A stretch of DNA of 64,000 bases. Origin: Sphingomonas edaphi (lineage in GTDB: Bacteria; Pseudomonadota; Alphaproteobacteria; Sphingomonadales; Sphingomonadaceae). Of this stretch, positions 1,948-46,634 are shown one piece after another. Location of the stretch: contig NZ_QXTF01000002.1 in the NCBI RefSeq assembly GCF_003583725.1, positions 124,001 through 188,000 of the forward strand, in the 5' to 3' direction. Numbering within the stretch: position 1 is the stretch's first letter; every line of letters starts with the position of its first letter. The position numbers and the translations under genes are program-made. A model generated the notes under the pieces. It was not told the origin of the DNA, searched no databases, and worked only from the letters and a program-made list of their open reading frames with translations.

Positions 1948-3045
1948 ATGAACATCATGACGACCGAAACGATCAGCCTGTCTAGGGACCAAGGCGCAGC
2001 CGCGAAGCGAGCGGCGGTTGCAGTGCGCGCCGACGACAAGGCGATGTTGCGCGCCGCTGCCGACCTGACGCGCGCACTCAACAAGCCCAATGCGTCGATC
2101 TATTGGGCGGACATGCTGGGTTCCGCCCTGCTTGGCTATGGCGCGTTGGCTCTGGCCATTTGGGCGACCTCGACCGGCATTCTGCTCGTCGCGGCGCTCG
2201 TCGCTGTCCTGGCCCTCTATCGCGCCGGCAGCTTCATCCATGAATTGACTCATTTGAAGCCGGGTTCGGTTCCAGGCTTCCGCTTGGCGTGGAATGCAAT
2301 CGTGGGCGTGCCGTTGCTTGTGCCGTCATTCCTGTATGAAGGCGTCCATAACCAGCATCACGCGAAGACGTATTATGGCACTGCCAACGATCCCGAATAT
2401 CTCCCATTAGCCTTGATGAAGCCGTGGACGTTGCCCGTGTTCCTGATCGCCGCGGCGCTCGCGCCTATCGGGATGTTGGTCCGCTTCGGCGTTCTCGCAC
2501 CCCTGTCGCTTTTCAACCCTCGGCTGCGCCAGATGGTCGTAGCGCGCTATTCGGGTCTCCAGATCAACCCGGTCTTCCGCCGGTCGAAGCCCCAAGGTAA
2601 ATTCGCCCGCGACTGGCTCGTGCAGGAAACTGCCGCCAGCCTGTGGGCAATTGCGCTAATCGGTATGGCTGCGACCGGCGTCATCCCGATGCGCGCCTTC
2701 CTCATAGGCATGAGCGTCGCGTCGGGCGTCATGTTCTTGAACCAGGTGCGCACCTTAGTCGCGCACCTTTGGGAAAATGACGGCGAGCCAATGAGTGTCA
2801 CCGCTCAGTATCTCGACAGCGTCAACGTACCGCCGCCGGCGACATTGCCCGCGCTATGGGCGCCTGTAGGCCTCCGCTATCATGCGCTGCATCACCTGCT
2901 GCCGGGCGTTCCCTATCATGCGCTGGGCGAGGCGCATCGTCGCTTGACCCGGGAGCTGGACGCCAGTTCTATTTATTTCAAGTCCAATCACCGCGGCCTT
3001 GCGCCGCTGGTCGGGCGGCTCGCCGCGAGCAGCTGGCGCGCCTAA
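1948..3045 (+). CDS. Membrane fatty acid desaturase family protein
   Basis: A 365-residue integral membrane di-iron desaturase or hydroxylase. The three histidine boxes are visible: HELTH (residues 98-102), HNQHH (134-138) and HALHH (312-316), the last followed by further His residues in the ending region. Hydrophobic segments fall around residues 60-90, 115-130, 160-190 and 225-260. The substrate cannot be told from sequence: phospholipid acyl chains, or the acyl or base chain of a ceramide given the neighbouring sphingolipid genes. ATG codons occur at 1948 and 1957; the first is used here. The gene ends 6 bases before the end of the convergent lptG. Confidence 0.88.
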   Translation: MNIMTTETISLSRDQGAAAKRAAVAVRADDKAMLRAAADLTRALNKPNASIYWADMLGSALLGYGALALAIWATSTGILLVAALVAVLALYRAGSFIHELTHLKPGSVPGFRLAWNAIVGVPLLVPSFLYEGVHNQHHAKTYYGTANDPEYLPLALMKPWTLPVFLIAAALAPIGMLVRFGVLAPLSLFNPRLRQMVVARYSGLQINPVFRRSKPQGKFARDWLVQETAASLWAIALIGMAATGVIPMRAFLIGMSVASGVMFLNQVRTLVAHLWENDGEPMSVTAQYLDSVNVPPPATLPALWAPVGLRYHALHHLLPGVPYHALGEAHRRLTRELDASSIYFKSNHRGLAPLVGRLAASSWRA

Positions 3046-3051
3046 GATTTT

Positions 3052-4149
3052 CTACTCCTCCTGGCGGATTAGGACGAGTTCGCCGATCAGCAAGAAGAGG
3101 AAAAACGGCGCCCATGCGGCCAGGAACGGAGGGTATGCGCCGATATTGCCGAGCGCGATGCTGAAGTTGTCGGCCACGAAATAGGCGAAGCCCAGTGCCA
3201 TTCCGATCGTCGCGCGAAGCAGCACCTTGCCGGACCGCGCCAGGCCGAATGCGGCGGTCGCCGCTAGCAGCGGCATCAGTACGGTCGACAAAGGTCCCGA
3301 CATCTTGTGCCACCAGCCGGTCCGGGCTTCTTCGGTTGGACGGCCGGCCGCTGCAAGATCGTCGATTGCCCCCCTTAGGTCGCCGAAGCTGCGTTCCGCC
3401 GGGTTGACCTTGGCAAGGGTGAAACGTGCCGGCTCGACGCCCGCAAGCGCTGTCATCTCCGGATAGCTCATGACCATGTTTGTCCGCGCGTCGTAAGTTC
3501 GGACAGTCCGAAGCTGCCAACCACCGGGCACCTGATCGGCGCGCTCGGCATCGACCACTCGCGCCATGGCCCCATTTTCGCGTTCGTAAATTGTTACCCC
3601 GCGAAGCTTGGTGGTCGAGCCATTCCCCCCGACAAACCTCGCCTTCACCAGATCATCGCCATCACGGATCCAGACGTTGGACAGCACGCCGCTTTCAGGA
3701 GGAATGGGCTTGTAGTCCGCGTCGCTCCACGCATCGAGCGTCCGGATCGACTGGATGACGACGGTTTCGTTGAAGACGAACAAGAGCGCGGCGACGCCTA
3801 AGCTGGCGGCGATCATCGGCGCCAGAATCTGGTGCGCCGACAAGCCAGCCGCTTTCATGGAGATGACTTCACTATGCTGATTGAGACCGGTGAACGCGAT
3901 CAGCGCACCCAGCAGCACCGAAAAGGGTAAGAAGCGGGAAATGAGCTGGGGCACCCGGAGGGTGACATATTGCCACAGCTCCGCTTCCCCATTGCCGGGT
4001 ATCTTCAGGATCTTGCTCGATTCCCCCAGCAGGTCGAGCATCATCAGCACCATCACCAGGGCAATCAGGACCGCGAGGCTGCGCGTGAGGAACAACTTCG
4101 CCGCATAGAGCGCCAGCCGGCGCGACGGCATAAAATCAAGGTTGATCAT
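3052..4149 (-). CDS. lptG: Lipid export ABC permease LptG
   Basis: A 365-residue YjgP/YjgQ family permease. LptF and LptG normally pair with the LptB ATPase to extract lipopolysaccharide from the inner membrane. The start at MINLDFMPSRRLALY follows from the 4-base ATGA overlap with lptF; the longer open frame upstream lies inside lptF and is not real. N-terminal membrane segments (residues about 15-110) are followed by a periplasmic beta-jellyroll region (about 135-265) and three C-terminal membrane segments ending near LLIGELVLIRQEE. Sphingomonads are known for replacing LPS with glycosphingolipids, so the cargo here may be a sphingolipid; that is inference. Confidence 0.92.
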   Translation of the reverse strand: MINLDFMPSRRLALYAAKLFLTRSLAVLIALVMVLMMLDLLGESSKILKIPGNGEAELWQYVTLRVPQLISRFLPFSVLLGALIAFTGLNQHSEVISMKAAGLSAHQILAPMIAASLGVAALLFVFNETVVIQSIRTLDAWSDADYKPIPPESGVLSNVWIRDGDDLVKARFVGGNGSTTKLRGVTIYERENGAMARVVDAERADQVPGGWQLRTVRTYDARTNMVMSYPEMTALAGVEPARFTLAKVNPAERSFGDLRGAIDDLAAAGRPTEEARTGWWHKMSGPLSTVLMPLLAATAAFGLARSGKVLLRATIGMALGFAYFVADNFSIALGNIGAYPPFLAAWAPFFLFLLIGELVLIRQEE

Positions 4150-5354
4150 GCGGCCGCTTCCACCCGCTCGTAGCGTTTTCTCGGCATTAGGCGTCGCGCC
4201 ATCTTGCCGATCTTGGCGAATGCCGCTTCCAGCGCGCCGATAGGCTGGCCACCCGGGCGATGGGCAATGACGTGATACATCCAGAAGATTAGCGCGACGA
4301 ACCCGATGAACGGAAGCCACAGCGCCAGTTCGGGAACGAGCCGGCCCTGGGTGCCAGCCCCTTCTGCATATTGGTTAATCTTGTGATAGGTCACGACCAT
4401 CACGATCCCGACGAATATTCCCAGCGACGAGTGGCTTCGCTTCGGCGGCACCGCGAGGGCGACGGCCAACAGCGGCAACATCAGCATCATCACCACTTCG
4501 ACCAAGCGGAAGTGCAAGTTAGCCCGTGACGCCAAGCTTTCTTCCTGATCCACCTTCGCGTCGCCGTAGGCTCGGTCATACACCTCGGGCAGCGTCAATT
4601 CTTTCTGCTCGTTTCCTCGTCCTCGGAAGGGATCGATAGCTGGCAGGTTGATCGGCAGGTCATAACTTTCGAAGGACAAGGTGCGCGGGCTCGCAAAGTC
4701 TTCGCCTTCCTGCACGAGCCGACCGCGCTTCAGCCGGAAGATGATCGTGTCGGGGTCATCGGTCGCTAGGAACTGGCCTTCGGACGCGGTGGCGGCGATG
4801 CGCATGCCTGACTTGTCATCGAGTGCGGTAAAGATCCCCAACAGGCGCGTACCATTGTCTTCGCTCCGGTCGATCCGCAGCGTCATGCGCTTTCCGAAGT
4901 CGTTGAACTCGCCGACCTTGATCGCCGCGCCGAGGGAACCAGATTTCAGGTCGAAACGCAGACCTTCATAGCGGTAGCGGGCATAAGGATCGACCCAGCC
5001 CACGATGGCGACATTGACCAGCATCAGGACGATTGCGAACGCATAAGGCACGCGAAGCAGGCGCCCATAGCCGACGCCGATTCCCCGCAGCGCATCCAGT
5101 TCCGACGACAAGGCAAGTTTGCGGAAAGCCAGCAGGATTCCAAGCAGTAGACCGATAGGGATGCCGAGGGAAAAATATTCGGGAAGCAGGTTAGCGAGCA
5201 TCCGCCAAACGACGCTGACCGGTCCCCCTGCGGTGATAACGAAGTCGAACAACCGCAACATCTTGTCGAGGACCAAGAGCATAGCCGCAAGGATCAACGT
5301 CCCGGCGAGCGGGACGGCGATGTTCCTGGCAAGATAGCGGTCGACCAACGCCAC
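4146..5354 (-). CDS. lptF: Lipid export ABC permease LptF
   Basis: A 402-residue YjgP/YjgQ family permease, partner of the downstream lptG. I place the start at the GTG at 5354 (MALVDRYLARN...), preceded by AAAAGG; the longer frame reaching 5444 runs into the promoter region and looks non-coding. The order is typical: first membrane segments with the LDKMLRLFDFV and SLGIPIGLLLGILLAFRKL stretches, a periplasmic jellyroll, then three C-terminal helices and a basic tail (RRLMPRKRYERVEAAA). It is translationally coupled to lptG by ATGA. No ABC ATPase gene lies beside it, as is usual for lptFG. Confidence 0.92.
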   Translation of the reverse strand: MALVDRYLARNIAVPLAGTLILAAMLLVLDKMLRLFDFVITAGGPVSVVWRMLANLLPEYFSLGIPIGLLLGILLAFRKLALSSELDALRGIGVGYGRLLRVPYAFAIVLMLVNVAIVGWVDPYARYRYEGLRFDLKSGSLGAAIKVGEFNDFGKRMTLRIDRSEDNGTRLLGIFTALDDKSGMRIAATASEGQFLATDDPDTIIFRLKRGRLVQEGEDFASPRTLSFESYDLPINLPAIDPFRGRGNEQKELTLPEVYDRAYGDAKVDQEESLASRANLHFRLVEVVMMLMLPLLAVALAVPPKRSHSSLGIFVGIVMVVTYHKINQYAEGAGTQGRLVPELALWLPFIGFVALIFWMYHVIAHRPGGQPIGALEAAFAKIGKMARRLMPRKRYERVEAAA

Positions 5355-5508: not shown

Positions 5509-6000
5509 ATGTCCATTTCTTTTTGCCCCCTTTCGATAGCCGCGGCTGTAACCGCAGGTTTGGCGATGGTCGCACCCGCGTACGCTGCACAGACCAACTG
5601 CGCCGCCGGGAAGCCGGGGGTTCTGGTTCATGTGGCTGGCCTCAAGCAGGCGCGCGGCCAGCTTAAGATCTCGCTGTATGGTTCCGACCGCGATCGCTGG
5701 CTGGCGAAGAAGGGCCGCATCAGTCGCATGAAGATTCCGGTGACCGGACGGTCGATGGACGTCTGCATGCCCGTTCCGGCGCCTGGCCGTTACGCAGTGG
5801 CGGTTCATCATGATTTCAATCTTAACGGTGAGCGTGACCGTCACGATGGTGGCGGCTTCTCACGCAATCCGAGGGTCAGTCTGTTTAATCCCAAGCCCTC
5901 GTTCGAAAAGGCGGCTTTCAATGTCGGCACCGGTCCAGCCCGCGTCGGCGTGACGTTGCTCTACATCAAGGGCCTCAGCGTAGGTCCGGCGGAGGGTTGA
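5509..6000 (+). CDS. DUF2141 domain secreted protein
   Basis: A 163-residue predicted exported protein. The start at 5509 gives a clean signal peptide (MSISFCPLSIAAAVTAGLAM...AYAAQ); an ATG 66 bases upstream would bury it. The mature part has the DUF2141 pattern, including LKISLYGSDRDRWL, GRYAVAVHHDFNLNGE and GFSRNP. The fold is probably a small beta-sandwich and the molecular function is unknown. It is coupled by TGATG to the lipid kinase that follows. As I recall, the Caulobacter ceramide phosphoglycerate genes form a similar three-gene set beside spt, so a role in periplasmic or outer-membrane sphingolipid handling is possible. Confidence 0.85.
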   Translation: MSISFCPLSIAAAVTAGLAMVAPAYAAQTNCAAGKPGVLVHVAGLKQARGQLKISLYGSDRDRWLAKKGRISRMKIPVTGRSMDVCMPVPAPGRYAVAVHHDFNLNGERDRHDGGGFSRNPRVSLFNPKPSFEKAAFNVGTGPARVGVTLLYIKGLSVGPAEG

Positions 6001-6974
6001 TGGCGAGGCCGCGGATCGCCCTGCTCAGCAATCCGAAGTCGACGGGTAACGTCGCTCAGTTGCCGCGCATTCGCGCCTTTTGCGCGGAGCATCCCGACAT
6101 TTTCCACTACGAAGTCGAACGCGCGGACCAGATTGGCGACGCGATGAAGACGATCGCCCGCATCCAGCCTTGCGTGCTGGCGATAAATGGCGGTGATGGG
6201 ACGGTGCAGGCGGCACTGACCGAATTGCATAATGGTGGACATTTTGCCGATGGCGCGCCGCCGGTTGCCGTGTTGCCCAGCGGAAAGACCAACCTCATCG
6301 CGCTCGATCTGGGTGCGCAGGGAGACCCGATCGCGGCCCTCGAGAAGTTGCTGGAGCTGGCGAAAGCAGACCTGTCGCCGCACATCGTCGCGCGCGAGCT
6401 AATTTCGCTCTCGGGCGGCGAAACCGCCATGACCCCGGTGATTGGTATGTTTCTTGGCGGAGCTGGGCTGGCGGATGTCATGCTCTACTGCCGTGACCGG
6501 ATATACCCGCTCGGCCTGCCCAACAGCGTCAGCCATTTCATCACGGCCGTCGCGGTAGTTCTTCGCCAAGTCTTTCGGCTTCGCGCCAGCTTCTTGCCGC
6601 CCGAACCTGCACCGCTCAGCGTCAGCGTCCGCCGCGAAGGCGCGATCACCGGGCGCTTCGCCTTCCTGTTCGTGACGACGCTGGAAAAGCTGCTGTTGTC
6701 GAGCGAGCTTGGCTCGGCCGGCAAGGGACCATTGAAGTTCGTCGCGGTCGAACAACGGCCTGTGTCGATGCTTCGTGCCTTCGCAGCTAGCCTTGCCGGC
6801 AAGCTGGGCCGCACCAAGCTTGCCGGAGTGCATGTCGAGGAAGCAGACGAAATTGCAATCGAGGGCGAGTCGAGCCAAGTCATTCTGGACGGAGAAACCT
6901 TCCGCGCCGGGGTCGGCAAGCCGATCCTGCTTCGCCCGGCGCAGCCGCTTTCGTTCATTCGTATTGCCGCTTAG
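6000..6974 (+). CDS. Diacylglycerol kinase-type lipid kinase, possible ceramide kinase
   Basis: A 324-residue YegS/DGK-family lipid kinase. The N-terminal nucleotide-binding domain has NPKSTGN (residues 11-17) and GGDGT (64-68), followed by PVAVLPSGKTNLIA, where GTxN is replaced by GKTN. The C-terminal beta-sandwich ends with VILDGETFRAG. The ATG at 6000 overlaps the upstream stop as TGATG; the preceding TTG is less likely. Family knowledge allows phosphorylation of diacylglycerol, of sphingoid bases or of ceramide. Its position between a DUF2141 gene and a nucleotidyltransferase-like gene, near spt and acp, favours ceramide. Confidence 0.85.
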   Translation: MARPRIALLSNPKSTGNVAQLPRIRAFCAEHPDIFHYEVERADQIGDAMKTIARIQPCVLAINGGDGTVQAALTELHNGGHFADGAPPVAVLPSGKTNLIALDLGAQGDPIAALEKLLELAKADLSPHIVARELISLSGGETAMTPVIGMFLGGAGLADVMLYCRDRIYPLGLPNSVSHFITAVAVVLRQVFRLRASFLPPEPAPLSVSVRREGAITGRFAFLFVTTLEKLLLSSELGSAGKGPLKFVAVEQRPVSMLRAFAASLAGKLGRTKLAGVHVEEADEIAIEGESSQVILDGETFRAGVGKPILLRPAQPLSFIRIAA

Positions 6975-6983
6975 CCATCGGCC

Positions 6984-7847
6984 ATGGCATCGGATCTGCG
7001 TGATCTCATCGAGGCGGAGTTGTCGCAACCGGTGGACCCGCGCGTCGCCGACATGGCGGCGGCTATCGCGGAACGGCACGGGGCGGCCAGCCGGGCAGTC
7101 CTGTTTTACGGCAGCTGCCTGCGTGAGAAACAGCTCGATGGGCTGATGCTTGATTTCTACCTGATCGTTTCCGACTATCACGCCGCCTATAAAAAGCGCT
7201 GGTTGGCTCGGGCGAATGCGCTCATTCCTCCCAATGTCTTCCCGTTTCAACACGGGAATCTCGGCGCGAAATATGCGGTGCTCAGCGAAGCCGATTTTCG
7301 CCGCCTTAACGGCCCGGAAACCCGTAATGTTTCCGTCTGGGCACGTTTCGCGCAGCCGTCACGACTAGTCTGGACCGCGAACACGGCGTCACGGAAGGCA
7401 GCCATCGATTCCGTGGCTCGCGCTGCGCCGACCCTGCTGGCGGCTGCGGGCCGCGTCCAAGGCGAGCTCCCGCTTGACTGGTGGCGGCGGGCGTTCGGGC
7501 TGACCTATTCCGCTGAACTCCGCGCGGAACGGAAGGGCCGAAGTGAGTCTGTCGTGGACGCTGACGCGGAACGCTATTCACGATTCAGCGGCCCGGTTAT
7601 CGCGTCGATCGAGCCCGGTGCGACCCGTGGACAATGGAGACGGCGACGCCTGGAAGGCAAGGCCTTGTCGATCGTCCGCCTTGCCAAGGCGAGCGCGACC
7701 TACGCGGGCGGCGCCGAATATATCGCGTGGAAGATCAATCGACACGCTGGAACGGACATCGAGTTGAAGCCATGGCAGAAGCGGCATCCGCTTCTAGCAG
7801 CGATTAGCCTGCTGCCGCGGCTCCTCCGATCGGGCGCGATTCGCTAG
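6984..7847 (+). CDS. Tam41-like nucleotidyltransferase-fold protein
   Basis: A 287-residue protein with no signal peptide or membrane segment. Residues 41-60 read FYGSCLREKQLDGLMLDFYL, a nucleotidyltransferase-type Gly-Ser motif followed by an acidic residue (D57). The later stretch NLGAKYAVLSEADF resembles the Tam41/Mmp37 phosphatidate cytidylyltransferase pattern, with PSRLVW where that family has its GRL.KP segment. It follows the lipid kinase by 9 bases and is probably co-transcribed. A step that uses the kinase product with a nucleotide would fit. The assignment rests on motif resemblance only and needs profile comparison. Its 3' end overlaps the convergent kinase gene by 44 bases. Confidence 0.6.
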   Translation: MASDLRDLIEAELSQPVDPRVADMAAAIAERHGAASRAVLFYGSCLREKQLDGLMLDFYLIVSDYHAAYKKRWLARANALIPPNVFPFQHGNLGAKYAVLSEADFRRLNGPETRNVSVWARFAQPSRLVWTANTASRKAAIDSVARAAPTLLAAAGRVQGELPLDWWRRAFGLTYSAELRAERKGRSESVVDADAERYSRFSGPVIASIEPGATRGQWRRRRLEGKALSIVRLAKASATYAGGAEYIAWKINRHAGTDIELKPWQKRHPLLAAISLLPRLLRSGAIR

Positions 7848-9804
7848 GGTTGCGTGCCAGTGCGGTTGCAACCGCCGCGGCCAAAGTGCTGACCGTGAAG
7901 GGCTTGCGAAGCAAGTCATAGCCGATGAGATCGTCGCCTTCGCCCTCGCCTACATATCCGGTGACGAACAGAACCGCGATGTCGTGGCGCCGCGACTTGA
8001 TTTCCCGCACCATCTCGGGCCCGGTCATCTCCGGCATGATGACGTCGGAGATGACGAGATCGAACTCCATGCTGTCGAACAGGGCGAGTGCCTCCGAACC
8101 GCTAGCGCAAGCGATCGGCTCGTAACCTAGGTCTTCCAATGCGCCGACCGTGGCGGTTCGGACGCGCGGGTCGTCTTCGACCAGCAGAATGCGGGCGCCG
8201 GGCACCATTAATTCCTCATCGCTCTTCGCCTGCATCGCGGGATGGGTCCGAACGTTGCTCGCGGCGGCTTCGGTGCGTGGTAAGTAGATCGACACGGTCG
8301 TTCCTTGGCCGACCACGCTTTCTATTCCGACTTCGCCGCCTGACTGATGCGCGAAACCGAAAATCTGCGACAGGCCAAGGCCGGTCCCTTTACCGACTTC
8401 TTTGGTTGTGAAGAACGGTTCGAAGGCGCGCTCCTTGACCTCGGGGGTCATGCCGCATCCGGTATCGACTACGTCGATGCACAAATATTCCCCGGCGCGA
8501 ATATCGCCGACCTGGTTGGCGGTCATTTTTAGGTTGCGGCTACGAATCGTCAGCGTGCCCGTGCCGTCCATTGCATCCCGCGCATTCACCGCCAGGTTGA
8601 GGATGGCGTTTTCTAACTGGTGCGGGTCGACAAATACCGGCCAGCCGTCGTTTGCCAATTCAGTCCGGACCGTGATCCGTTCGCCCAACGTGCGATCAAG
8701 CAGCTCGCTCATCCCCCCGACCAGCTTCGCGCTATCGAGCCGTTCGGGCAGCAGCGGCTCGGACCGTGCGAAGGAGAGCAGTCGGCGGGTCAGCGCCGCT
8801 GCGCGCGTCGCGCCTTCCATCGCATTCGTCAGGTGGGTCATTACCTCGCGGCGGGGTCCGTTCAGGCGGCGGCGGGCTAAGTCGATGCCGCCAACCACGA
8901 CGGCCAACATATTGTTAAAGTCGTGCGCGATGCCGCCGGTTAGCTGCCCGACCGCTTCCATCTTCTGAACCTGACGAAGCTGGGCTTCGGCGGCCTGCCG
9001 CTCCTCGGCTTCGAGCTTGAGAGCCTGATTGGCTTGCCAAAGTTCCTGCGTGCGGTCGCGCACTGCCGCTTCAAGCTGCTGCGCGCGCTCCGCTTCGCTT
9101 TCGGCCTCTCGCCGTGACGCTGCATTCTGGCGAAGCGCTTGGACTGCCACGACACCCATAAAAATCGCGAACAGACCGACGATAACGCCCAGCCAAGATA
9201 GGTAGTCGGTGAGCCGGTCCGCTTCGGCGGAGAAGAACTGCGTTTCCTTGATCTTCGCGGACAGGGCGTCCCGCTCCGCCGTCGCAATTTCGCTCAGCTT
9301 GGCGCGAAGCTTGGTGCCGACATCATCCTTTTGCCCGGCCTCGGGTAGGGAGATCGAGTAATAATAATTGATGCCGTAGTTTTTCTGCTTTGAAACGACA
9401 TAGCGCGCGACGTTGCTGAATTGCTGGCCGCGTTGATCGAACAGCCTGCGGAGTTCGGTAACGCGTAGGCTCTGGTCGGAATTTGCTGAGACCGACTTTT
9501 CAAGTTGCCGAAGTTGCTGTTCCGCGAGCCGCCATTGCCCGTAGTAGCGGCTGCCCGTCTTCCGTTGCTCGTCGAGCGCATAGCGGCCCAGTGCGGCCTC
9601 CGCCCGCGCGATGCTGGCGTCCATGGTGCGGGTGAGCAGGGTCACGTCATAGGCATGACGTTCTGCATCCAGCGCCTTGTCGCGTGCACTGTTGGTGAAG
9701 GCGACGAGTACGACCATACCCAGCAGAACCAGGGTCGCAAAAAGGCCAACGGCCGCGGCACCGCCCCGGCGCCAGTCGAAGCTTCGGTCTTCCCCCGCCG
9801 TCAT
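7804..9804 (-). CDS. Hybrid sensor histidine kinase with C-terminal receiver
   Basis: A 666-residue membrane kinase. Membrane segments at about residues 17-37 and 202-224 enclose a helical periplasmic sensor region of roughly 165 residues (CHASE3-like in layout). A coiled coil (235-285) and the phospho-acceptor H294 in GGIAHDFNNML follow. The HATPase part shows NLAVNARDAM, DTGCGM and GKGTGLGLS. The receiver domain begins near ARILLVEDDPRVR and contains LVISDVIMPEM with the acceptor Asp. This H-box type is typical of alphaproteobacterial HisKA kinases that lack a paired response regulator. The signal is unknown. No paired regulator gene is adjacent. Confidence 0.92.
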   Translation of the reverse strand: MTAGEDRSFDWRRGGAAAVGLFATLVLLGMVVLVAFTNSARDKALDAERHAYDVTLLTRTMDASIARAEAALGRYALDEQRKTGSRYYGQWRLAEQQLRQLEKSVSANSDQSLRVTELRRLFDQRGQQFSNVARYVVSKQKNYGINYYYSISLPEAGQKDDVGTKLRAKLSEIATAERDALSAKIKETQFFSAEADRLTDYLSWLGVIVGLFAIFMGVVAVQALRQNAASRREAESEAERAQQLEAAVRDRTQELWQANQALKLEAEERQAAEAQLRQVQKMEAVGQLTGGIAHDFNNMLAVVVGGIDLARRRLNGPRREVMTHLTNAMEGATRAAALTRRLLSFARSEPLLPERLDSAKLVGGMSELLDRTLGERITVRTELANDGWPVFVDPHQLENAILNLAVNARDAMDGTGTLTIRSRNLKMTANQVGDIRAGEYLCIDVVDTGCGMTPEVKERAFEPFFTTKEVGKGTGLGLSQIFGFAHQSGGEVGIESVVGQGTTVSIYLPRTEAAASNVRTHPAMQAKSDEELMVPGARILLVEDDPRVRTATVGALEDLGYEPIACASGSEALALFDSMEFDLVISDVIMPEMTGPEMVREIKSRRHDIAVLFVTGYVGEGEGDDLIGYDLLRKPFTVSTLAAAVATALARNPSESRPIGGAAAAG

Positions 9805-9849: not shown

Positions 9850-11052
9850 CTACTGAATGACGCCCGTCTTGCGGCCCGCCGCCTCAAACATGCCGAGTAT
9901 CTCGTCGACCTGTTCGCTTGAATGCTCGGCACAGAGAGAACAACGCAGTAGAGTCATGTTAGCGGGCGTCGCAGGCGGACGGGCGAGGTTCACGTAAAGG
10001 CCCTCGTTCAGCAGCGCTTCCCACATCGCCGCGCCCTTCTCTAGGTTGGGCATGATAACCGCGATAATTGCCGATTGCGGCTCGTCCGTTCCCAGCGTGA
10101 AGCCCAGCGACTTCAATGCGCCGTGCAGCTTCTTGCTGTTTTCCCACAGGTGGTCGCGTTTCGCCTTGCTATGCATCAGTTTGCGGATGGATGTCGCCGC
10201 GGTAGCGACGACGCTAGGCGGCAGCGACGCGGTAAAGACATAGGGCCGGCAAACCAGCCGGAGAATTTCGAATTTCGGATGGTTGGAAACGCAGAAGCCG
10301 CCGACCGTGCCGACCGACTTGGAGAAGGTGCCGATGATGAAGTCGACATCGTCGATCACGCCCTGCGCTTCAACCACGCCGCGTCCATTTTCGCCAATGA
10401 ATCCCATCGAATGGGCCTCGTCGACCAGCACCATGGCGCCATGCGCTTTCGAGACCGCCACCATTTCCTTGAGCGGCGCAATGTCGCCCAGCATCGAATA
10501 AACGCCTTCCAGCACGACCAGCTTGCCGGCCCCTTCGGGAAGGCGCTTCAGACGCTTTTCCAGCGCTTCGATATCGTTGTGACGGAACGGAACGATCTGC
10601 GCGTTACCGAGGGCGCAGCCGTCATAGATCGAAGCATGGCTGTCGATGTCGAGGATGATGTAGTCATCCTTGCCTGCCATGGTGGAAATGATGCCGAGGT
10701 TTGCCTGGTAGCCCGTCGAAAACACCATGGCATGATCCATGGCGTAGAAGTCCTTCAGCGCCTCTTCCACTGCCTTATGCCCGACGTAAGTGCCGTTGAG
10801 GACCCGGCTGCCCGTGGTGCCGGACCCGAACTTGTCGAGCGCGTCCTTGCCCGCGGCAATGACATCCGGATCGAACGTCATCCCCATGTAATTATAGGTG
10901 CCCAGCAGGATCGTCTTGCGCCCATTGCAGATAGCGACCGTAGGCGAAACAACCTCTTCCATCACCAAGTTGAAAGGATCGGTGACGCCGGTCGACAGCA
11001 GCTGTTCGCGCGTCTGAATCAGCGGGTCGAACTTGGAAAAGAGATCGGTCAA
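9850..11052 (-). CDS. spt: Serine palmitoyltransferase
   Basis: PLP-dependent alpha-oxoamine synthase (400 residues) that condenses L-serine with a long acyl thioester to 3-ketosphinganine, the first step of sphingolipid synthesis, in the cytoplasm. Visible active-site residues are K245 in GTFSKSVG (Schiff base), H139 in DIDSHAS (ring stacking), and D211 and H214 in VDEAHSMG. Length and sequence agree with the soluble homodimeric sphingomonad enzyme rather than with KBL or BioF. It lies 3 bases after the acyl carrier protein gene, so the acyl donor is likely an acyl-ACP. Together they form a two-gene operon. Confidence 0.93.
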   Translation of the reverse strand: MTDLFSKFDPLIQTREQLLSTGVTDPFNLVMEEVVSPTVAICNGRKTILLGTYNYMGMTFDPDVIAAGKDALDKFGSGTTGSRVLNGTYVGHKAVEEALKDFYAMDHAMVFSTGYQANLGIISTMAGKDDYIILDIDSHASIYDGCALGNAQIVPFRHNDIEALEKRLKRLPEGAGKLVVLEGVYSMLGDIAPLKEMVAVSKAHGAMVLVDEAHSMGFIGENGRGVVEAQGVIDDVDFIIGTFSKSVGTVGGFCVSNHPKFEILRLVCRPYVFTASLPPSVVATAATSIRKLMHSKAKRDHLWENSKKLHGALKSLGFTLGTDEPQSAIIAVIMPNLEKGAAMWEALLNEGLYVNLARPPATPANMTLLRCSLCAEHSSEQVDEILGMFEAAGRKTGVIQ

Positions 11053-11055
11053 AGG

Positions 11056-11301
11056 TCAGGCCGCCTTCAGCTTGTCCACCGCGTCGACCAGCTGGCCGAC
11101 ATTCTCGATCTCCGCCTGCTGGTTCATGGTGATGAGGATATCGAATTCGTCTTCGACATTGGCGACGAAGTCGAGGACGGTGAGGCTATCCCACTCCAGG
11201 TCCTGCGCGAAACGGGTGTCGTCGGCGATCGCGATACCCTTTTTGTTGAAGGGCTCGATCAGGGCCTTCACCCTGGCGTCTGTGTCGGCTCGGTCGGTCA
11301 T
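11056..11301 (-). CDS. Acyl carrier protein linked to sphingolipid synthesis
   Basis: An 81-residue acyl carrier protein. The phosphopantetheine site is S39 in EWDSLTVLDF. The start at 11301 gives the normal ACP length; a longer open frame upstream overlaps the DUF2147 gene and is discarded. The sequence differs from the housekeeping AcpP (which has the DSLD pattern and a more acidic helix II). It is immediately upstream of spt with a 3-base gap, matching the specialised AcpR next to spt in Caulobacter. Its likely job is to present the long acyl chain to serine palmitoyltransferase. Confidence 0.92.
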   Translation of the reverse strand: MTDRADTDARVKALIEPFNKKGIAIADDTRFAQDLEWDSLTVLDFVANVEDEFDILITMNQQAEIENVGQLVDAVDKLKAA

Positions 11302-11372
11302 GGCTCGCGTCCTAATCGGGGGCTTGCGCTTAAGCAACGAAATCGGGCGGGAAAGAGGCGGGAACGTGCCGC

Positions 11373-11762
11373 CTATTGCGGATCGGTCCTTGTCCAGAGT
11401 TGCGACTTGCACAGCATGCGCCCGATGGCGCAGCCGGTTACTTTGAGCCGGTCCGCGCCTACTAACCGGATCTCCGCCTTGGAACGGTGGTTCAGGTCGG
11501 GGATGAACAGGCGTCCCCTCCAGCGACCATTCCCTTTGTTTGTGAAGCCGCTGAGCAGTTGCTTCCCAATGAGTCCCGACGTGCCTCCGTCCAGCGCGTC
11601 GGCCTTCGCCTTGTCGGACGCCCACTGGACATGACCGCACAGGGCGTTGCCGCAACTAGCGATCAAGATGACAACCGTGCCCGACGGATTGCGCCAATGA
11701 CCCTCGACATCGTTCGTCGGCACTGGCTGGACGGTGAGCAACGCTGCAAGGAGCGGGATCAT
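11373..11762 (-). CDS. DUF2147 domain secreted protein
   Basis: A 129-residue protein with a short hydrophobic N-terminus (MIPLLAALLTVQPV) that may act as a signal peptide. A DUF2147 core follows: VEGHWRNPSGTVVILI, ALCGHVQWA, the GRWRGRLFIPD strand and the C-terminal LKVTGCAIGRMLCKSQLWTR, with four cysteines that could form disulfides. DUF2147 proteins are small predicted periplasmic beta-barrels of unknown function. It sits 71 bases upstream of acp on the same strand and could be in the same transcript. Confidence 0.85.
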   Translation of the reverse strand: MIPLLAALLTVQPVPTNDVEGHWRNPSGTVVILIASCGNALCGHVQWASDKAKADALDGGTSGLIGKQLLSGFTNKGNGRWRGRLFIPDLNHRSKAEIRLVGADRLKVTGCAIGRMLCKSQLWTRTDPQ

Positions 11763-13290: not shown

Positions 13291-14208
13291 TTATAGCCAG
13301 CCGTGCTGTCGGTACCACCTGGCGGTGTCGGCAAGTCCTTGCTGTGTATCGATTTGCGGCGTCCAGAGTTCGGCGGGGGCGCCTCGCGCGGGATGGACTG
13401 CCCAGTCCGGATGACAGAAATAATTGACCCGATCCGGTGTCAGCTTAGCCCTCTCGCCGCGAACCATGCGGTCCAGCGCAGCGCCCGCCCGCAGAAACGC
13501 GCGCGGCGTGGACAGCGTAACGACTTTCCTGCCGACCGCTCGACCAAGCGCTTTCCCGAACTCATGATGGGTCCAACCGCCCTCGCGCGCGTCGTCTGGC
13601 TCAACCAACGCAGGGCCAGGGGTGGCTGGAGCAGCGAGCGCCAACAGAAGGCGTGACAGGTCGTCGACGTGGACTACCGACAGGCGACCACCCGGCGGTA
13701 ACAGGACGAGGCCTCGGTTTGCCATCCGGAAAAGTTCGAGCGTCTCGCGGTCGCCCGGCCCGTAGACGGCCGGTGGTCGGACGATAGCCGACGACAGCGG
13801 CGCTGCTTCGACTAGCTCTTCTGATCGCGCCTTGCTCGCTCCGTAAAGTGACAGCCCGGGTTCGCGCGCGGCCAGGGAGCTGACATGAACGAAGCGACTG
13901 ACGCCAACACGCTTGGCCGCGTCCAACATCCGCTGAGTTCCCGCGACGTTGCCAGCCTCGAAACCGGGCGCATCCTGGGCGTTAATCACGCCCGCCACGT
14001 GTATGACAGCATCGACGCCCTCCGCGAGCCTGTCCAGGCCGGCTTGGTCTTCCAACGATCCCGCGATCCATTCGACGCCATCCCGGTCCGAATGTGGGCG
14101 CCGGGTTAGTGCCCGAACGGCATGACCGCTTTGAAGGGCGAGATCGATCAGGCGACTGCCGACGAAGCCGGTGCCTCCCGTGATCGCCAGTTTCAGAGGG
14201 GCGACCAA
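13291..14208 (-). CDS. NAD-dependent epimerase/dehydratase (extended SDR)
   Basis: A 305-residue extended or atypical short-chain dehydrogenase. The N-terminal Rossmann motif TGGTGFVGSRL is followed by the HVAGV segment, VSSLAA (catalytic Ser region), YGASK (Tyr-Lys pair) and RPPAVYGPGD. The start is a TTG at 14208 (GGAAG upstream) inside the obgE 3' end; the overlap is 16 bases, so translation is probably coupled. The substrate is unknown. In Caulobacter the ceramide reductase CerR belongs to this superfamily and is encoded beside spt and acp; here the gene is about 2 kb from acp, so that is a candidate role only. Confidence 0.85.
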   Translation of the reverse strand: MVAPLKLAITGGTGFVGSRLIDLALQSGHAVRALTRRPHSDRDGVEWIAGSLEDQAGLDRLAEGVDAVIHVAGVINAQDAPGFEAGNVAGTQRMLDAAKRVGVSRFVHVSSLAAREPGLSLYGASKARSEELVEAAPLSSAIVRPPAVYGPGDRETLELFRMANRGLVLLPPGGRLSVVHVDDLSRLLLALAAPATPGPALVEPDDAREGGWTHHEFGKALGRAVGRKVVTLSTPRAFLRAGAALDRMVRGERAKLTPDRVNYFCHPDWAVHPARGAPAELWTPQIDTQQGLADTARWYRQHGWL

Positions 14209-20156: not shown

Positions 20157-21686
20157 TCAGGCGGCAGCAGTATCTCCTTCTGGCTTGCTATCCTCACCGA
20201 CCCGCATCATCGCCAGAGCTGCTATCACCAGCGTCCCCGCCGCGAATGCCATCGTGTAAATCGGTTCGGTCGGGAAGAACGCCTTCATGATTGAGCCCAT
20301 GACAGTCGCAACAAGCAGCTGCGGCACCACTACGAAAACGTTGAACAGGCCCATGTAGATACCGAGCTTTGCCTGCGGCAGGTTCGATGCGAGGATGGCG
20401 TAGGGCATGGCGAGGATCGAGGCCCACGCGATGCCGATGCCGATCTCTGCGATCAGCAGGTACTGCGCGTCCCTGAACAGGAAGAAGCTGGCGAAGCCCG
20501 CCGCCCCACACAACAACCCAACCATATGCGTCCGCGCCTTGCCGATCTGCCGGGCGAGCAGCGGCAGTAGGGTAAGGGCGGCAATCGCGGCAACGCCGTT
20601 ATAGACGGCGAACAACACGCCAACCCAGTTGCCAGCCTCCTGATAGGCGGAGCTTTCTGCATCGGCCGAACCGAAGAAATACTGCGCCACCACTGGCGTC
20701 GTGTTGATCCACATGATGAACAGTGCGGACCAACTGAAGAACTGGACGATAGCCAGCTTCTTCATGATGGAGGGCATTCCGGAAAAGTCGCCGACGATAC
20801 TCGACAGCATATTCGCCGAATTGCCACCGCGGGCCATGCTGATGGCCAAGGCCGACGCCAGGCCGTAGGCGACCAGCAGGCCGCCGAGCAAATAGACTTC
20901 CTTCTCAAGTCCAAACTGCAATACGGCCAGCACAACTAAGGCGCCGGCAACGATCCAAGCCAGACTTGCGCCGAACCCTCGCGACGCGAGCGCGCGGAGG
21001 GTTGACGAGCCACCCTCGTCTGGCTCTTCGCCATAGGCGCGTAGTTGGTCGGCGCTATACTCGTCGGTTGCGATGACGGTCCAAAGCACGGCCAGGAAAA
21101 GGGCAATGCCGCCGAACCAGAAGCTGTAGCGGACGGTATCGGGGATAACGCCGGCAGCGGCCTCGTTCGAAACGCCCCAATAATCGAGCAACCAGGGGAA
21201 AATGGATCCTACGACTGCGCCTGCGCCGATGAATGCCGTCTGCACGGCATATCCCGCCGTGTGCTGGTCTTTCCGAAGCATGTCTCCGACGAAAGCGCGA
21301 AACGGCTCCATCGAAATGTTCAGGCTGGCATCGAGCAGCCACAGCAATACGGCGGCGAACAGCAGGACCTCGGCCATCGGCATCAGGAATAGCGAAAGGG
21401 CCGCGAGGATCGCGCCCGCGAGAAAATAGGGCCGACGCCGGCCGAGCCGGCCAAGCCAGGTACGGTCGCTCATGAATCCGACGATCGGCTGAACCAGAAG
21501 ACCAGTCAGCGGCGCCGCGATCCAGAGGGCGGGAAGGTCGTCCAATGACGAGCCCAGCGTCTGAAAGATCCGGCTCATGTTCGAATTCTGGAGCGCAAAC
21601 CCGATCTGGATTCCGAAAAAGCCGAACGAAATGTTCCACAGGCCCGCCCACGACTGGCGGGGTTTGCCGGCTTCGCCCAACGTCAT
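20157..21686 (-). CDS. SLC45/GPH-type MFS sugar transporter (MalY-like)
   Basis: A 509-residue, 12-segment major facilitator. The N-terminal part FGFFGIQIGFALQNSNMSRIFQTLG and the loop LVQPIVGFMSDRTWLGRLGRRRPYF are typical of the SLC45-like group that imports sucrose, maltose or maltodextrin with protons. In Caulobacter-type systems the homologue MalY works with a maltodextrin TonB receptor. It is divergent from the FucP-type transporter, and the shared upstream region carries a LacI-type palindrome. The neighbouring receptor and glycosidases support a maltose or maltodextrin substrate. Confidence 0.85.
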   Translation of the reverse strand: MTLGEAGKPRQSWAGLWNISFGFFGIQIGFALQNSNMSRIFQTLGSSLDDLPALWIAAPLTGLLVQPIVGFMSDRTWLGRLGRRRPYFLAGAILAALSLFLMPMAEVLLFAAVLLWLLDASLNISMEPFRAFVGDMLRKDQHTAGYAVQTAFIGAGAVVGSIFPWLLDYWGVSNEAAAGVIPDTVRYSFWFGGIALFLAVLWTVIATDEYSADQLRAYGEEPDEGGSSTLRALASRGFGASLAWIVAGALVVLAVLQFGLEKEVYLLGGLLVAYGLASALAISMARGGNSANMLSSIVGDFSGMPSIMKKLAIVQFFSWSALFIMWINTTPVVAQYFFGSADAESSAYQEAGNWVGVLFAVYNGVAAIAALTLLPLLARQIGKARTHMVGLLCGAAGFASFFLFRDAQYLLIAEIGIGIAWASILAMPYAILASNLPQAKLGIYMGLFNVFVVVPQLLVATVMGSIMKAFFPTEPIYTMAFAAGTLVIAALAMMRVGEDSKPEGDTAAA

Positions 21687-21761
21687 TCTCCCCTTGAAAC
21701 CGGGTCATTGCGCCCGGTTGTTCCCGACGCTGGCAGAGCAGGAGCGGCAACACAACGTCCG

Positions 21762-21775
21762 TGCATTCGTATGCA
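21762..21775. promoter_or_regulatory. Candidate LacI operator between the two transporters
   Basis: TGCATTCGTATGCA: arms match in 6 of 7 positions around a central CG, as expected for a LacI-family operator. It lies in the divergent region between the two transporter genes, 76-89 bases before the SLC45-type start and 74-87 before the FucP-type start. It shares ATTCGTATGCA with a site before zwf and CGTATG with one before the TonB receptor. Confidence 0.6.
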
Positions 21776-21848
21776 TCGATGCGGGGGGTGACGGGCCGCA
21801 CGCGACCCGATAGCCCTTTGCGCAAATATAAGGGGAGGATTGGGGAAA

Positions 21849-23150
21849 ATGGTGATTGCTACGCAGCCGACCGAGGGCGAGGCCAACTCCACCCCGCTTG
21901 ACCTGCCGGAAGGTGGGGTCGACGCGCCCCACCTGCGCTATTTTGTCATGGCGCTGTTTTTCATCTTCGGCGGCATCACCTCGCTCAACGACGTGATCAT
22001 TCCCAAGCTGAAGGAGCTTTTCACGCTCAATTACACCCAAGCGATGCTGGTACAATTCTGCTTCTTCACTGCATATTTGGTCATCGGTATTCCGGGCGCG
22101 CAGCTCGTCAAAAAAATCGGCTACATGCGGGGGGCGGTGGCGGGTCTACTGACGATGATGGTCGGGTGCCTGCTGTTCATTCCTGCCTCAAAGACTGCGA
22201 CCTACGGTCTATTCCTCTTCGCGCTGTTCATCCTCGCCAGTGGGGTGGTGGTCGTCCAAGTCGTAGCAAACCCGCTGATCAGCCTGCTCGGGCCACAAAA
22301 GACGGTGCACAGCCGACTGACCTTCGCACAGGCATTCAACAGCCTCGGTACAACGATCTTCCCGCGCGTTGGCGCGACACTCATCCTCGGTAGCCTTGCC
22401 GGCGTGACTGCCGCCGAACTGTCGGGCGCCGAACTCGACGCTTACCGTACCGCCGAAACGCAGATGATCGTCAACACGTACGTCGGGTTGGCGATCGCGC
22501 TTGCTGTGATCGCCGGCATCGTCTTCCTCTTCCGCAATTCGCTGAAAGGCGAACGGCATGATCATGGCTCGCCGCTCGCCGGCTTCTCGCTGCTCAAGCG
22601 ACCCCGCTTTGGCTTCGGCGCGATGTGCATCTTCCTGTACGTCGGCGCGGAAGTCGCGATCGGCTCGCTGATCGTCAATTACCTCATGCAGTCGCACGTT
22701 CTCGCCCTGGCCGATGCGGAGGCCGGTAAATACATTATGTATTATTGGGGAGGTGCGATGGTCGGCCGCTTCATCGGTTCTTACTTCCTGCGCATCCTTA
22801 GCCCGGGAAAGATCCTGGCGTTCGTCGCGGCCGGCGCAATTGCACTTATCCTGGTCTCCGCCAACACGACCGGAACCGTGTCAGCCTATAGCCTGCTGGC
22901 AATTGGCCTAATGAACTCGATCATGTTTCCGACCATTTTTAGCCTCGCCTGCGAAAAGCTCGGCCCGCGCGCGGCCGACGGCTCAGGGATCATCAACATT
23001 GCCATTTTCGGCGGTGCGGTCGTTCCGTTGCTGACGGGCATGTTGGCCGATGTGTCGGGCAGCCTCGCGACCGCGCTGCTGCTGCCGGCGGTTTGTTATT
23101 TGGTGATCGCCGCCTTCGGCATCTACGCCCGGCGACCCGCGGCCTCCTAG
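21849..23150 (+). CDS. FucP-family sugar:proton symporter
   Basis: A 433-residue MFS transporter of the FucP / GluP glucose-galactose group. The first half shows GGITSLNDVIIPKLKELF, LVIGIPGAQLVKKIGYMRG and NPLISLLGPQKTVHSRLTFAQAFNSLG, which contains the Asn and Gln sugar-binding residues of this family. The second half shows GAEVAIGSLIVNYL and YYWGGAMVGRFIGS. It probably brings glucose released by the periplasmic glucosidases into the cytoplasm. The start at ATG 21849 sits next to purine-rich GGGGAAA. Its 3' end overlaps the lacI-type gene by 4 bases. Confidence 0.9.
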   Translation: MVIATQPTEGEANSTPLDLPEGGVDAPHLRYFVMALFFIFGGITSLNDVIIPKLKELFTLNYTQAMLVQFCFFTAYLVIGIPGAQLVKKIGYMRGAVAGLLTMMVGCLLFIPASKTATYGLFLFALFILASGVVVVQVVANPLISLLGPQKTVHSRLTFAQAFNSLGTTIFPRVGATLILGSLAGVTAAELSGAELDAYRTAETQMIVNTYVGLAIALAVIAGIVFLFRNSLKGERHDHGSPLAGFSLLKRPRFGFGAMCIFLYVGAEVAIGSLIVNYLMQSHVLALADAEAGKYIMYYWGGAMVGRFIGSYFLRILSPGKILAFVAAGAIALILVSANTTGTVSAYSLLAIGLMNSIMFPTIFSLACEKLGPRAADGSGIINIAIFGGAVVPLLTGMLADVSGSLATALLLPAVCYLVIAAFGIYARRPAAS

Positions 23151-24166
23151 CTGGAGCCGCGAACGATGAGCCGGACCGGCAGCAGCACGCTGTCCGGTCC
23201 GCGCTCCTCGATCTTCGATACCAGCGTCTCGACCAGCGTCTCGCCGGCCAGGATCGCGTCCTGCGCAATGGTGGTCAGAGCCGGCTCCGCCATCCTCGCT
23301 GCGGCAAGGTTGTCGAACCCAACGATCGAAACGTCGCACGGGGTGTTTAGCCCGGCATGGTGAAGCACATGCATCGCGCCGATCGCGACCAGGTCACTAG
23401 TGGCGAAAATCGCGTCGAACGCCACGCCTGAACCCAGCAGTGTCTCCGCCGCCTCGCGTCCAGCTTCCTCCGTGGGGATGGCGTCGAACTGCAGCCGCGC
23501 GTCATGGGTCACGCCTGCTTCGTCGAGCGCGCGTCGGAAGCCCTTCCACCGCTCGACGAATTCCGGCGCCGCGTCGCTAACCGTTCCAAGGAAAGCGATC
23601 GATTTGCGACCCCGTTCGATCAGATGTTTTCCGGCCAGGTATCCGCCCTGCTCATTGTCAGACCCGACAGTCGTGCCGATCTCACCGTCGGTTGCGGCGC
23701 CCCAACGGACGAAATGCGTACCCTGCCGGACCAATTGCTCCAGCCGCGGTCGCGCCGCGACATAATCGCCATAACCAAGCAGCAGGATGCCGTCGGCCTT
23801 CCGGCTGTCCTCATAGTCGACGTGCCAGTCGCCCGACAGTTGCTGCAAGCTGATCAAGAGGTCGTACCCGCGGCTGGCGCAGGCCCGCGTTAGAGATCCC
23901 ACCATCGACAGGTAGAAAGGATTGATCAACGTATCGTCCGGCGTCGGGTCTTCAAAGAAGAGAAGAGCGATGGTGCGCGAATGGCGCCTGCGCAGGCCCG
24001 ATGCATTCTTGTCGACCGTATAGTTGAGCTTGCGGGCGGCATCGAGCACGCGATTCCGCGTTTCCTCACTGACGGATGGATTGCCCGACAGGGCGCGGCT
24101 GACCGTCGGTTGGGATACCCCGGCAAGCGCAGCAATATCGAAGGATGTGGGTCGGCGCGTGGTCAT
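23147..24166 (-). CDS. LacI-family transcriptional repressor
   Basis: A 339-residue LacI-type regulator. The N-terminal helix-turn-helix and hinge are at residues 8-55 (FDIAALAGVSQPTVSRALSG, then RNRVLDAARKLNY). A periplasmic-binding-like effector domain follows (LINPFYLSMVGSL, GILLLGYGD, RKSIAFLG, AFDAIFATSDLVAIG, VSIVGFDN). The start at 24166 removes an upstream stretch without domain sense. It sits in a maltodextrin locus, divergent from the TonB receptor, and is the likely reader of the CGTATG-centred palindromes before the transporters, the receptor and zwf. The effector may be maltose or an Entner-Doudoroff intermediate. Confidence 0.9.
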   Translation of the reverse strand: MTTRRPTSFDIAALAGVSQPTVSRALSGNPSVSEETRNRVLDAARKLNYTVDKNASGLRRRHSRTIALLFFEDPTPDDTLINPFYLSMVGSLTRACASRGYDLLISLQQLSGDWHVDYEDSRKADGILLLGYGDYVAARPRLEQLVRQGTHFVRWGAATDGEIGTTVGSDNEQGGYLAGKHLIERGRKSIAFLGTVSDAAPEFVERWKGFRRALDEAGVTHDARLQFDAIPTEEAGREAAETLLGSGVAFDAIFATSDLVAIGAMHVLHHAGLNTPCDVSIVGFDNLAAARMAEPALTTIAQDAILAGETLVETLVSKIEERGPDSVLLPVRLIVRGSS

Positions 24167-24231
24167 TTCAGGCGTCGAGAATCCGTTGCAACTTCGCCAC
24201 GGCAGCGCGGCTAACGCCTTCGTAGGACAGG

Positions 24232-24245
24232 TGAATACGTATGTA
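24232..24245. promoter_or_regulatory. Candidate LacI operator before the TonB receptor
   Basis: TGAATACGTATGTA: arms match in 5 of 7 positions around a central CG, with a perfect inner ATACGTAT. It lies between the divergent lacI-type gene (start at 24166) and the receptor gene (start at 24367), so it could control both. Confidence 0.55.
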
Positions 24246-24366
24246 TAGCGTCCCGCACTGGCTGACTCCCGCGTCACTCCGCTGCAAAGGCTATGTCGTC
24301 GATCCGAAACAATCGGACGGGTGCGCCAAAGCGCGCGCCAACCTTTCGGGAGGGAATAGGGGTCTT

Positions 24367-27201: not shown

Positions 27202-27207
27202 TGACGG

Positions 27208-27243
27208 TGGCGGGTCCGAGGATGTCGGACCCGCCATTTTTTT
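27208..27243 (+). terminator. Intrinsic terminator after the TonB receptor gene
   Basis: An 11-base perfect stem TGGCGGGTCCG / CGGACCCGCCA with a 7-base loop, followed by seven T. It begins 7 bases after the receptor stop codon. It should separate high receptor expression from the lower expression of the downstream enzymes. Confidence 0.92.
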
Positions 27244-27302
27244 CATTGGAAGCTCTGGGATTGTGGCTTCGGTCGCCATGATAGTCGGAGGGGATAGCGA
27301 TC

Positions 27303-36195: not shown

Positions 36196-36200
36196 CCGGT
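36187..36200. repeat. Palindrome over the glk stop codon
   Basis: ACCGGCTAGCCGGT, a perfect 14-base palindrome containing the glk TAG. It sits in the only real gap (about 24 bases) of the glycosidase series. The stem would have almost no loop; it might lower read-through translation or transcript stability between glk and the amylase gene. Confidence 0.4.
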
Positions 36201-36219
36201 CAACCAATAGGTGTCCAAA

Positions 36220-37584: not shown

Positions 37585-37601
37585 CCGCCCATCGTCCGAC
37601 G

Positions 37602-46579: not shown

Positions 46580-46634
46580 GCGCACCTCTCAACCGGCAAA
46601 AAGACGGGAGAGTACGACACACCCTCCCCGAAGG

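Follow-up and report, generated by a model that had tools for sequence, protein, structure and literature searches.

A sphingolipid-linked LptF-LptG pair in Sphingomonas edaphi as the probable permease of an Lpt bridge carrying a ceramide-based lipid

Introduction

The closest described counterpart of the locus studied here is found in Caulobacter crescentus, where LptC2, LptF2 and LptG2 (CC_1168, CC_1156 and CC_1155), second versions of LptC, LptF and LptG, are encoded in the sphingolipid cluster CC_1152-1168 (PMC11324152). In that 2024 report these proteins are proposed, without test, to transport phosphosphingolipids, and the route of bacterial sphingolipids to the outer membrane is stated to be unknown. 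The same report describes ceramide kinase activity for CC_1160 and a requirement for both CC_1160 and CC_1161 in the formation of ceramide phosphoglycerate (CPG), the enzyme function of CC_1161 being still to be clarified, and mentions that S. wittichii and Z. mobilis have orthologs of the cluster genes, scattered over the genome. In the LPS exporter LptB2FGC-A-D of E. coli and Shigella, LptF R292 and LptG R301 are described as nucleotide-contacting arginines, and LptG K34, K62, R133 and R136 as meeting the lipid A 1-phosphate in Shigella (PMC6744409). Lpt orthologs are also reported for Borrelia burgdorferi, a diderm that lacks LPS and for which a glycolipid cargo was suggested by modelling (PMC10353723), although this lineage is unrelated to Sphingomonadales. 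S. paucimobilis, in turn, has been reported to lack LPS (cited in PMC10094684).

Here, a window of 64,000 nucleotides from Sphingomonas edaphi was analysed. It resembles the Caulobacter cluster in that lptF and lptG lie beside genes assigned by position as cerS, ceramide kinase, CC_1161 and spt (PMC11324152). However, Caulobacter has LPS and carries this pair as a second one, whereas the sphingolipid-type pair is the only pair in S. edaphi, in which one LptC above the cut-off was found. With the exporter of E. coli and Shigella the system shares the permease family, the nucleotide-contacting arginines and the bridge components; it differs in that the cargo there is LPS and in that LptG K34 and K62 are not kept in Sphingomonadales.

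The lptF-lptG pair and its gene neighbourhood

Both permease genes are encoded on the reverse strand. The lptG gene (3052-4149) matched PF03739 (E 4.5e-73) and TIGR04408 (289.5 bits, cut-off 240), and lptF (4146-5354, GTG start) matched PF03739 (E 3.6e-59) and fell just under its NCBIfam equivalog cut-off (226.9 against 230 bits). The stop of lptF and the start of lptG share the letters ATGA, an overlap read in the sequence that places the lptG start at 4149; in the Pfam scan this ORF was taken as 3052-4158. The PF03739 matches were full-length in the two ORFs (246.7 and 201 bits against a gathering cut-off of 27.9, covering profile positions 2-352 and 1-351 of 353), and both reading frames are intact in the window. 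LptF R292 was kept in 56 of 57 Sphingomonadales rows, the other one having a gap, and LptG R301 in 57 of 57. As these arginines are kept and the pN/pS of LptF and LptG against three relatives was 0.19-0.47, the pair is under selection. It is the single LptF/G pair of the 2.37 Mb, 99.99% complete genome.

The placement of lptF and lptG among sphingolipid genes, already proposed in a sequence-only reading of the window, held up. A serine palmitoyltransferase gene (SPT; 9850-11052, reverse strand) was recognised by NF047603 (819.9 bits, cut-off 670), and an acyl carrier protein gene (acp; 11056-11460, reverse; PF00550, E 2.1e-7) lies beside it. On the other side of the pair, a gene for a protein of the fatty acid desaturase/hydroxylase family (1948-3045, forward; PF00487, E 8e-27) is preceded by a candidate ceramide synthase gene of the CC_1154 type (CerS; 720-1907, reverse; 395 aa), which matched neither a Pfam nor an NCBIfam model and takes its name from its position among the cluster genes. 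A candidate CerR, an SDR/epimerase (13291-14208, reverse; PF01370, E 9.1e-25), lies beyond acp. The gene order cerS-lptG-lptF-...-kinase-CC_1161-spt-acp-cerR parallels that of the Caulobacter genes CC_1154-1164 as numbered in PMC11324152, and position in the cluster is the basis on which the names CerS, ceramide kinase, CC_1161-type and CerR were transferred.

The three genes that follow lptF on the forward strand had been read as a lipid-kinase trio. One of them does encode a lipid kinase with a DAGK domain (6000-6974; PF00781, E 8e-13), a candidate ceramide kinase of the CC_1160 type; the other two encode a DUF2141 protein (5512-6000; PF09912, E 5e-21) and a protein with a predicted nucleotidyltransferase fold, the candidate CC_1161-type protein CpgX (6984-7847, 287 aa). 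CpgX was recognised neither by Pfam nor by a PDB sequence profile, and it was a fold search with an AlphaFold2 model (pLDDT 90.2) that gave matches. In the PDB, ranks 1-5 were CDP-DAG synthases of the mitochondrial Tam41 kind (best 7ecd, E 2.7e-7, TM 0.47, rmsd 7.4); next came a nucleotidyltransferase-like protein and then aminoglycoside nucleotidyltransferases. The motif YGS and the aspartate D57 were invariant in 29 sequences, and F58 and Y59 were nearly so. The Tam41-like fold of the model suggests that CpgX may act in a CDP-ceramide step on the way from ceramide 1-phosphate to ceramide phosphoglycerate.

A hybrid histidine kinase (7804-9804, reverse), read by eye from the translation, is encoded between cpgX and spt and overlaps the end of cpgX. 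A close match to this kinase was present in 14 of the fetched LptF/G loci.

LPS pathway and Lpt bridge

The genome of S. edaphi was searched for lpxC and for lptB, lptC, lptA and lptD, as the sequence-only reading had called for, and these checks came out in favour of that reading. LpxC gave no match in this genome nor in any of the 197 genomes of the order, and the same search matched E. coli, Caulobacter, Synechococcus and Bacteroides, four of its 14 controls. In organisms that make LPS, lpxD, lpxA and lpxB lie by fabZ. The fabZ locus of S. edaphi reads cdsA-dxr-rseP-bamA-ompH-fabZ, followed on the opposite strand by FecCD/ABC transporter genes, and none of lpxD, lpxA and lpxB was among the ten ORFs scanned there. 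Judged from LpxC and the fabZ locus, the lipid A pathway that an LPS cargo of the Lpt system would require appears to be missing.

In contrast, LptB, LptC, LptA and LptD are all encoded. LptC, the LptA domain and LptD passed their Pfam cut-offs and LptB its NCBIfam cut-off (365.6 against 240), whereas LptA (58.6 against 71.7) and LptD (67.5 against 683) missed theirs in NCBIfam. The genes lptC, lptA and lptB lie together beside rpoN, and lptD (C1:296487) lies within pepA-lptD-surA-pdxA-rsmA. Across the order, LptD was present in 197 of 197 genomes and LptF/G in 195, with two LptF/G matches in 179 genomes, three in 12, four in three, five in one and none in two. Sphingomonadales thus seem to have lost LPS while keeping the LPS-export machine. 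Sphingolipid makers are not alone in having LptF/G but no LpxC: PF03739 matched 7 of the 14 controls, among them Thermus, Deinobacterium and Thermotoga, all without an LpxC match.

Linkage to sphingolipid genes across Sphingomonadales

From the 197 genomes, 60 LptF/G neighbourhoods, one per genome, were taken from a score-ranked match list and so as to span the families f1-f7 except f2. At least one of CerS, SPT, DAGK and CpgX was present in 60 of 60 loci. CerS was found in 55, DAGK in 38, the desaturase in 36, SPT in 34 and CpgX in 32; the stretches were 13-19 kb each, and some absences of partner genes are therefore due to lack of room. Wherever CerS was present (55 of 55 loci) it lay on the strand of lptG, with a median gap of 1484 bp. 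Among the best 80 of 151 named relatives, CerS or DAGK was on the locus in all 80 (CerS in 61, DAGK in the other 19), and all 80 LptF and 80 LptG scored higher with the sphingolipid-type profile. Most of these relatives belong to Sphingomonas, Sphingobium or Sphingomicrobium; the rest are a small number of other sphingomonad genera and MAGs titled Sphingomonadales or more loosely. The linkage of lptFG with sphingolipid genes is not a matter of chance, and the synteny that the sequence-only reading had asked about in LPS-less sphingomonads is kept across the order.

Two loci with extra LptF/G copies, L080 and L082, stand outside the 60-locus count and had none of CerS, SPT, DAGK and CpgX. In G002 (L080), two single extra LptF genes of the sphingolipid type lie near DUF2141 genes. 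G053 (L082) carries a second full sphingolipid-type pair, the LptF of which groups with that of the LpxC-positive genome G274, hinting at transfer.

Two permease types in Alphaproteobacteria

The class was sampled with 143 genomes, of which three belong to Sphingomonadales. LpxC was matched in 120, CerS (profile, E 1e-20) in 25 and LptF/G in 137. In the cross-table of these genes, for which the Fisher tests ignore the relatedness of the genomes, seven of the eight genomes positive for both LpxC and CerS had four LptF/G matches, i.e. two pairs, and G215 had two. LpxC-positive genomes negative for CerS (n = 112) mostly had two matches (103 genomes); four were found in one (G208), three in three, one in four and none in one. 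Sixteen of the 17 LpxC-negative, CerS-positive genomes had two matches (one pair) and G236 had none, and four of the six genomes negative for both had no LptF/G, with two matches each in G233 and G282.

In the seven CerS-positive genomes with four matches, one pair lay beside sphingolipid genes and the other did not. The stretches of eleven LpxC-positive, CerS-negative one-pair genomes held no CerS, SPT, DAGK, CpgX or CerR, and one weak acp match occurred in L101. CerS was on the stretch in all nine LpxC-negative genomes fetched outside the order. The pairs of four more LpxC-negative genomes (G244, G313, G319 and G321, this status being assigned by elimination for the last three) also typed as sphingolipid-linked. 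Three of them have CerS on the stretch that bears the pair; in G319 it lies about 24 kb off, and SPT, DAGK and CpgX are near the pair. In all, the pair was of the sphingolipid type in 13 of 13 LpxC-negative, CerS-positive genomes outside the order that have an LptF/G pair. Of the two matches in G215 (LpxC-positive, CerS-positive), the one fetched was of the LPS type. The family codes f21 and f62 each include one sampled LpxC-positive and one LpxC-negative member. The window pair belongs to a separate, sphingolipid-linked LptF/G type, which is found by sphingolipid genes also in LPS-making Alphaproteobacteria; both types occur together in seven of the eight sampled genomes that have LpxC as well as CerS.

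Some genomes depart from this pattern and count against the proposed link, namely G215, G236, and G233 and G282 with their two matches in the absence of both LpxC and CerS. G236 (L245, C1:1498000-1517000), a one-contig genome of 5.4 Mb that is LpxC-negative, lacks an LptF/G match although CerS, SPT, ACP and CerR are present, whereas G313 of its family carries the pair. In G208, which is LpxC-positive and CerS-negative, a very divergent LptF/G-like pair lies near an SPT-like gene (L064, C2:490000-509000).

LptF and LptG trees and the place beside lptD

In a quick joint tree of LptF and LptG (112 rows; the 201-aa LptF match of L064 was left out of the trees, and L081 had lptG without lptF on the stretch), the 19 LptF rows of the LPS type and the 37 of the sphingolipid type were each recovered at 99. 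LPS-type LptG (19 rows) was likewise recovered at 99, with the sphingolipid-type LptG outside it and unresolved as one rooted clade. A more careful tree of LptF alone (56 rows) split the 19 LPS-type from the 37 sphingolipid-type rows at 100/100 and in 100% of 200 bootstrap trees. LptF of the window, here termed LptF2, falls on the sphingolipid-linked side, and by this split and the cerS/spt linkage the window pair groups with the sphingolipid-linked pairs of the two-pair genomes. A constraint placing Sphingomonadales together with LPS-type LptF was rejected (p-AU 0.0013), the groups for this test having been named after the joint tree had been seen. On the sphingolipid-type LptF rows the LpxC state requires at least four changes, or three without L070, L080 and L082, counted on the gene tree and not on a species tree; if whole lineages did swap LPS for sphingolipid, as in the broader model given below, the swap would thus probably have happened more than once.

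The two types also differ in their surroundings. LPS-type loci read pepA-lptF-lptG-lptD-surA, with lptD after lptG in 17 of 19 (the others being L068 and L078) and PepA on the stretch in 18 of 19 (all but L076); L065, L073 and L100 have it at a distance of several kb from lptF. In 21 of 21 lptD loci of the order (L043 from S. edaphi itself, and L143-L162), pepA and lptD were adjacent and no LptF/G was on the stretch; surA followed in 20. The window pair lies neither in a pepA-lptF-lptG-lptD-surA operon nor in the LPS-type clade. Most simply read, the empty place marks the loss of the LPS-type permease from within its operon, with the outer-membrane translocon retained. A stranded LPS permease, the reading considered first, was rejected on the LptF tree and this empty place, and the earlier proposal of an LPS permease given a new cargo gives way to that of a distinct, sphingolipid-linked type.

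L068 (G253) and L078 (G306), where lptD does not adjoin the LPS-type lptG, both come from two-pair genomes.

Residues considered as cargo marks

LptG K34 and K62 were absent from 57 of 57 Sphingomonadales rows, and the position of R133 was basic in at least 22 and that of R136 in 10 of the 57. However, K34, R133 and R136 were also absent from 19 of 19 LPS-type alphaproteobacterial rows, and the 1-phosphate contact residues were rejected as a cargo mark, failing to separate LPS-type from sphingolipid-type alphaproteobacterial LptG. LptF position 30 was likewise set aside as suggestive only. It was K or R in 73 of 73 sphingolipid-type rows (57 from the order, 9 LpxC-minus and 7 linked) against 1 of 19 LPS-type rows; it is N or Q in three extra copies of the order and K in the LPS exporter of E. 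coli and Shigella.

Cargo of the bridge

LPS has seemingly been lost, its export machine is kept, and a different permease lies beside sphingolipid genes; sphingolipids are therefore very probably what the machine now brings to the surface. Linkage, co-occurrence and the lack of LpxC lead us to infer that lptF-lptG encode the permease in the inner membrane for an Lpt bridge whose cargo is not LPS but an anionic, ceramide-based lipid, a reading to which we assign a probability of about 80%. Gene content, permease type, synteny and the empty place beside lptD are direct observations, whereas the loss of a permease from that place, the assembly of the complex and the direction of transport are, like the cargo, inferred. 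Ancestors would have had two permeases, an LPS-type LptF1G1 in the pepA-lptF-lptG-lptD-surA operon and a sphingolipid-type LptF2G2 in the ceramide cluster. In Sphingomonadales, lpxC and LptF1G1 would have been lost and LptD, LptA, LptC and LptB kept, and LptF2G2 alone would now serve them.

The ceramide-based glycolipid proposed as cargo by the sequence-only reading stands in so far as a ceramide-based lipid is the best reading; nothing singles out a glycosphingolipid, and the neighbours resemble the CPG set. A cargo that is specifically ceramide phosphoglycerate, a phosphosphingolipid, with glycosphingolipids taking another route to the surface, is conceivable but rather doubtful. The lipid kinase and the candidate CC_1161-type gene beside lptF speak for it, as CC_1160 and CC_1161 are reported to be needed for CPG in Caulobacter (PMC11324152), and by this analogy the neighbours may point at least partly to CPG as cargo. 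However, DAGK (38 of 60) and CpgX (32 of 60) are less constant in the order loci than CerS (55 of 60), some stretches lacking room, which makes ceramide synthesis itself the steadiest partner of lptFG. Moreover, sphingomonads are known for glycuronosyl-ceramide.

It is unlikely that LptF2G2 and the rest of Lpt move some other amphiphile (a glycerolipid, a lipoprotein or a polysaccharide-lipid) beside ceramide genes that are neighbours by history only. Such a cargo would agree with the LptF/G-family genes of the LpxC-less controls and with the Lpt orthologs of LPS-less Borrelia, where the glycolipid cargo is only modelled (PMC10353723). On the other hand, two pairs track CerS among LpxC-positive genomes (7 of 8 against 1 of 112), and all 13 LpxC-negative, CerS-positive, pair-bearing genomes outside the order have the sphingolipid type. 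An unrecognised lipid A, made by an LpxC-independent route and carried by Lpt, is highly improbable: the genome-wide search for the lipid A pathway covered LpxC alone, which leaves room for such a route, but LpxC was absent from 197 of 197 genomes in a search that did match Caulobacter and three other controls, neither lpxD, lpxA nor lpxB was among the genes scanned by fabZ, an LPS-type LptFG is missing, and S. paucimobilis is reported to lack LPS (cited in PMC10094684). That the Lpt genes are relics decaying after the loss of LPS is the least credible reading, with no point found in its favour and with LptD in 197 and LptF/G in 195 of 197 genomes, intact frames in the window and the pN/pS of 0.19-0.47 against it.

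Beyond the ceramide-based cargo preferred here, LptF/G may act as a cargo adaptor on a bridge that is otherwise blind to its cargo, each surface lipid of Alphaproteobacteria having its own LptF/G type while LptB, LptC, LptA and LptD are shared, and whole lineages may have exchanged LPS for sphingolipid through the loss of lpx and LptF1G1, with LptD left in place; for this broader model we see the chances as even. Transport of sphingolipids by Lpt would mean that the selectivity of the bridge lies in LptF/G and that Lpt inhibitors could act on LPS-less bacteria. An order without LpxC that typically has one permease pair and one LptD is a clean place to test sphingolipid transport to the outer membrane. 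In the open-access literature, the search of which had preprints and subscription papers outside its scope, no report was found of LptD being kept after the loss of LpxC throughout Sphingomonadales, or of the loss of LPS-type LptFG, and priority for the order-wide permease swap is uncertain.

Other genes of the window

A starch/maltose utilisation cluster (20157-38561) comprises MFS transporters, a LacI-type regulator, a TonB receptor, a halogenase-like protein, alpha-amylases and GH97, the names before 30529 having been read by eye from translations. Further along, on the reverse strand (41207-46585), a hybrid histidine kinase of 1792 aa with several HAMP domains and two receiver domains is encoded.
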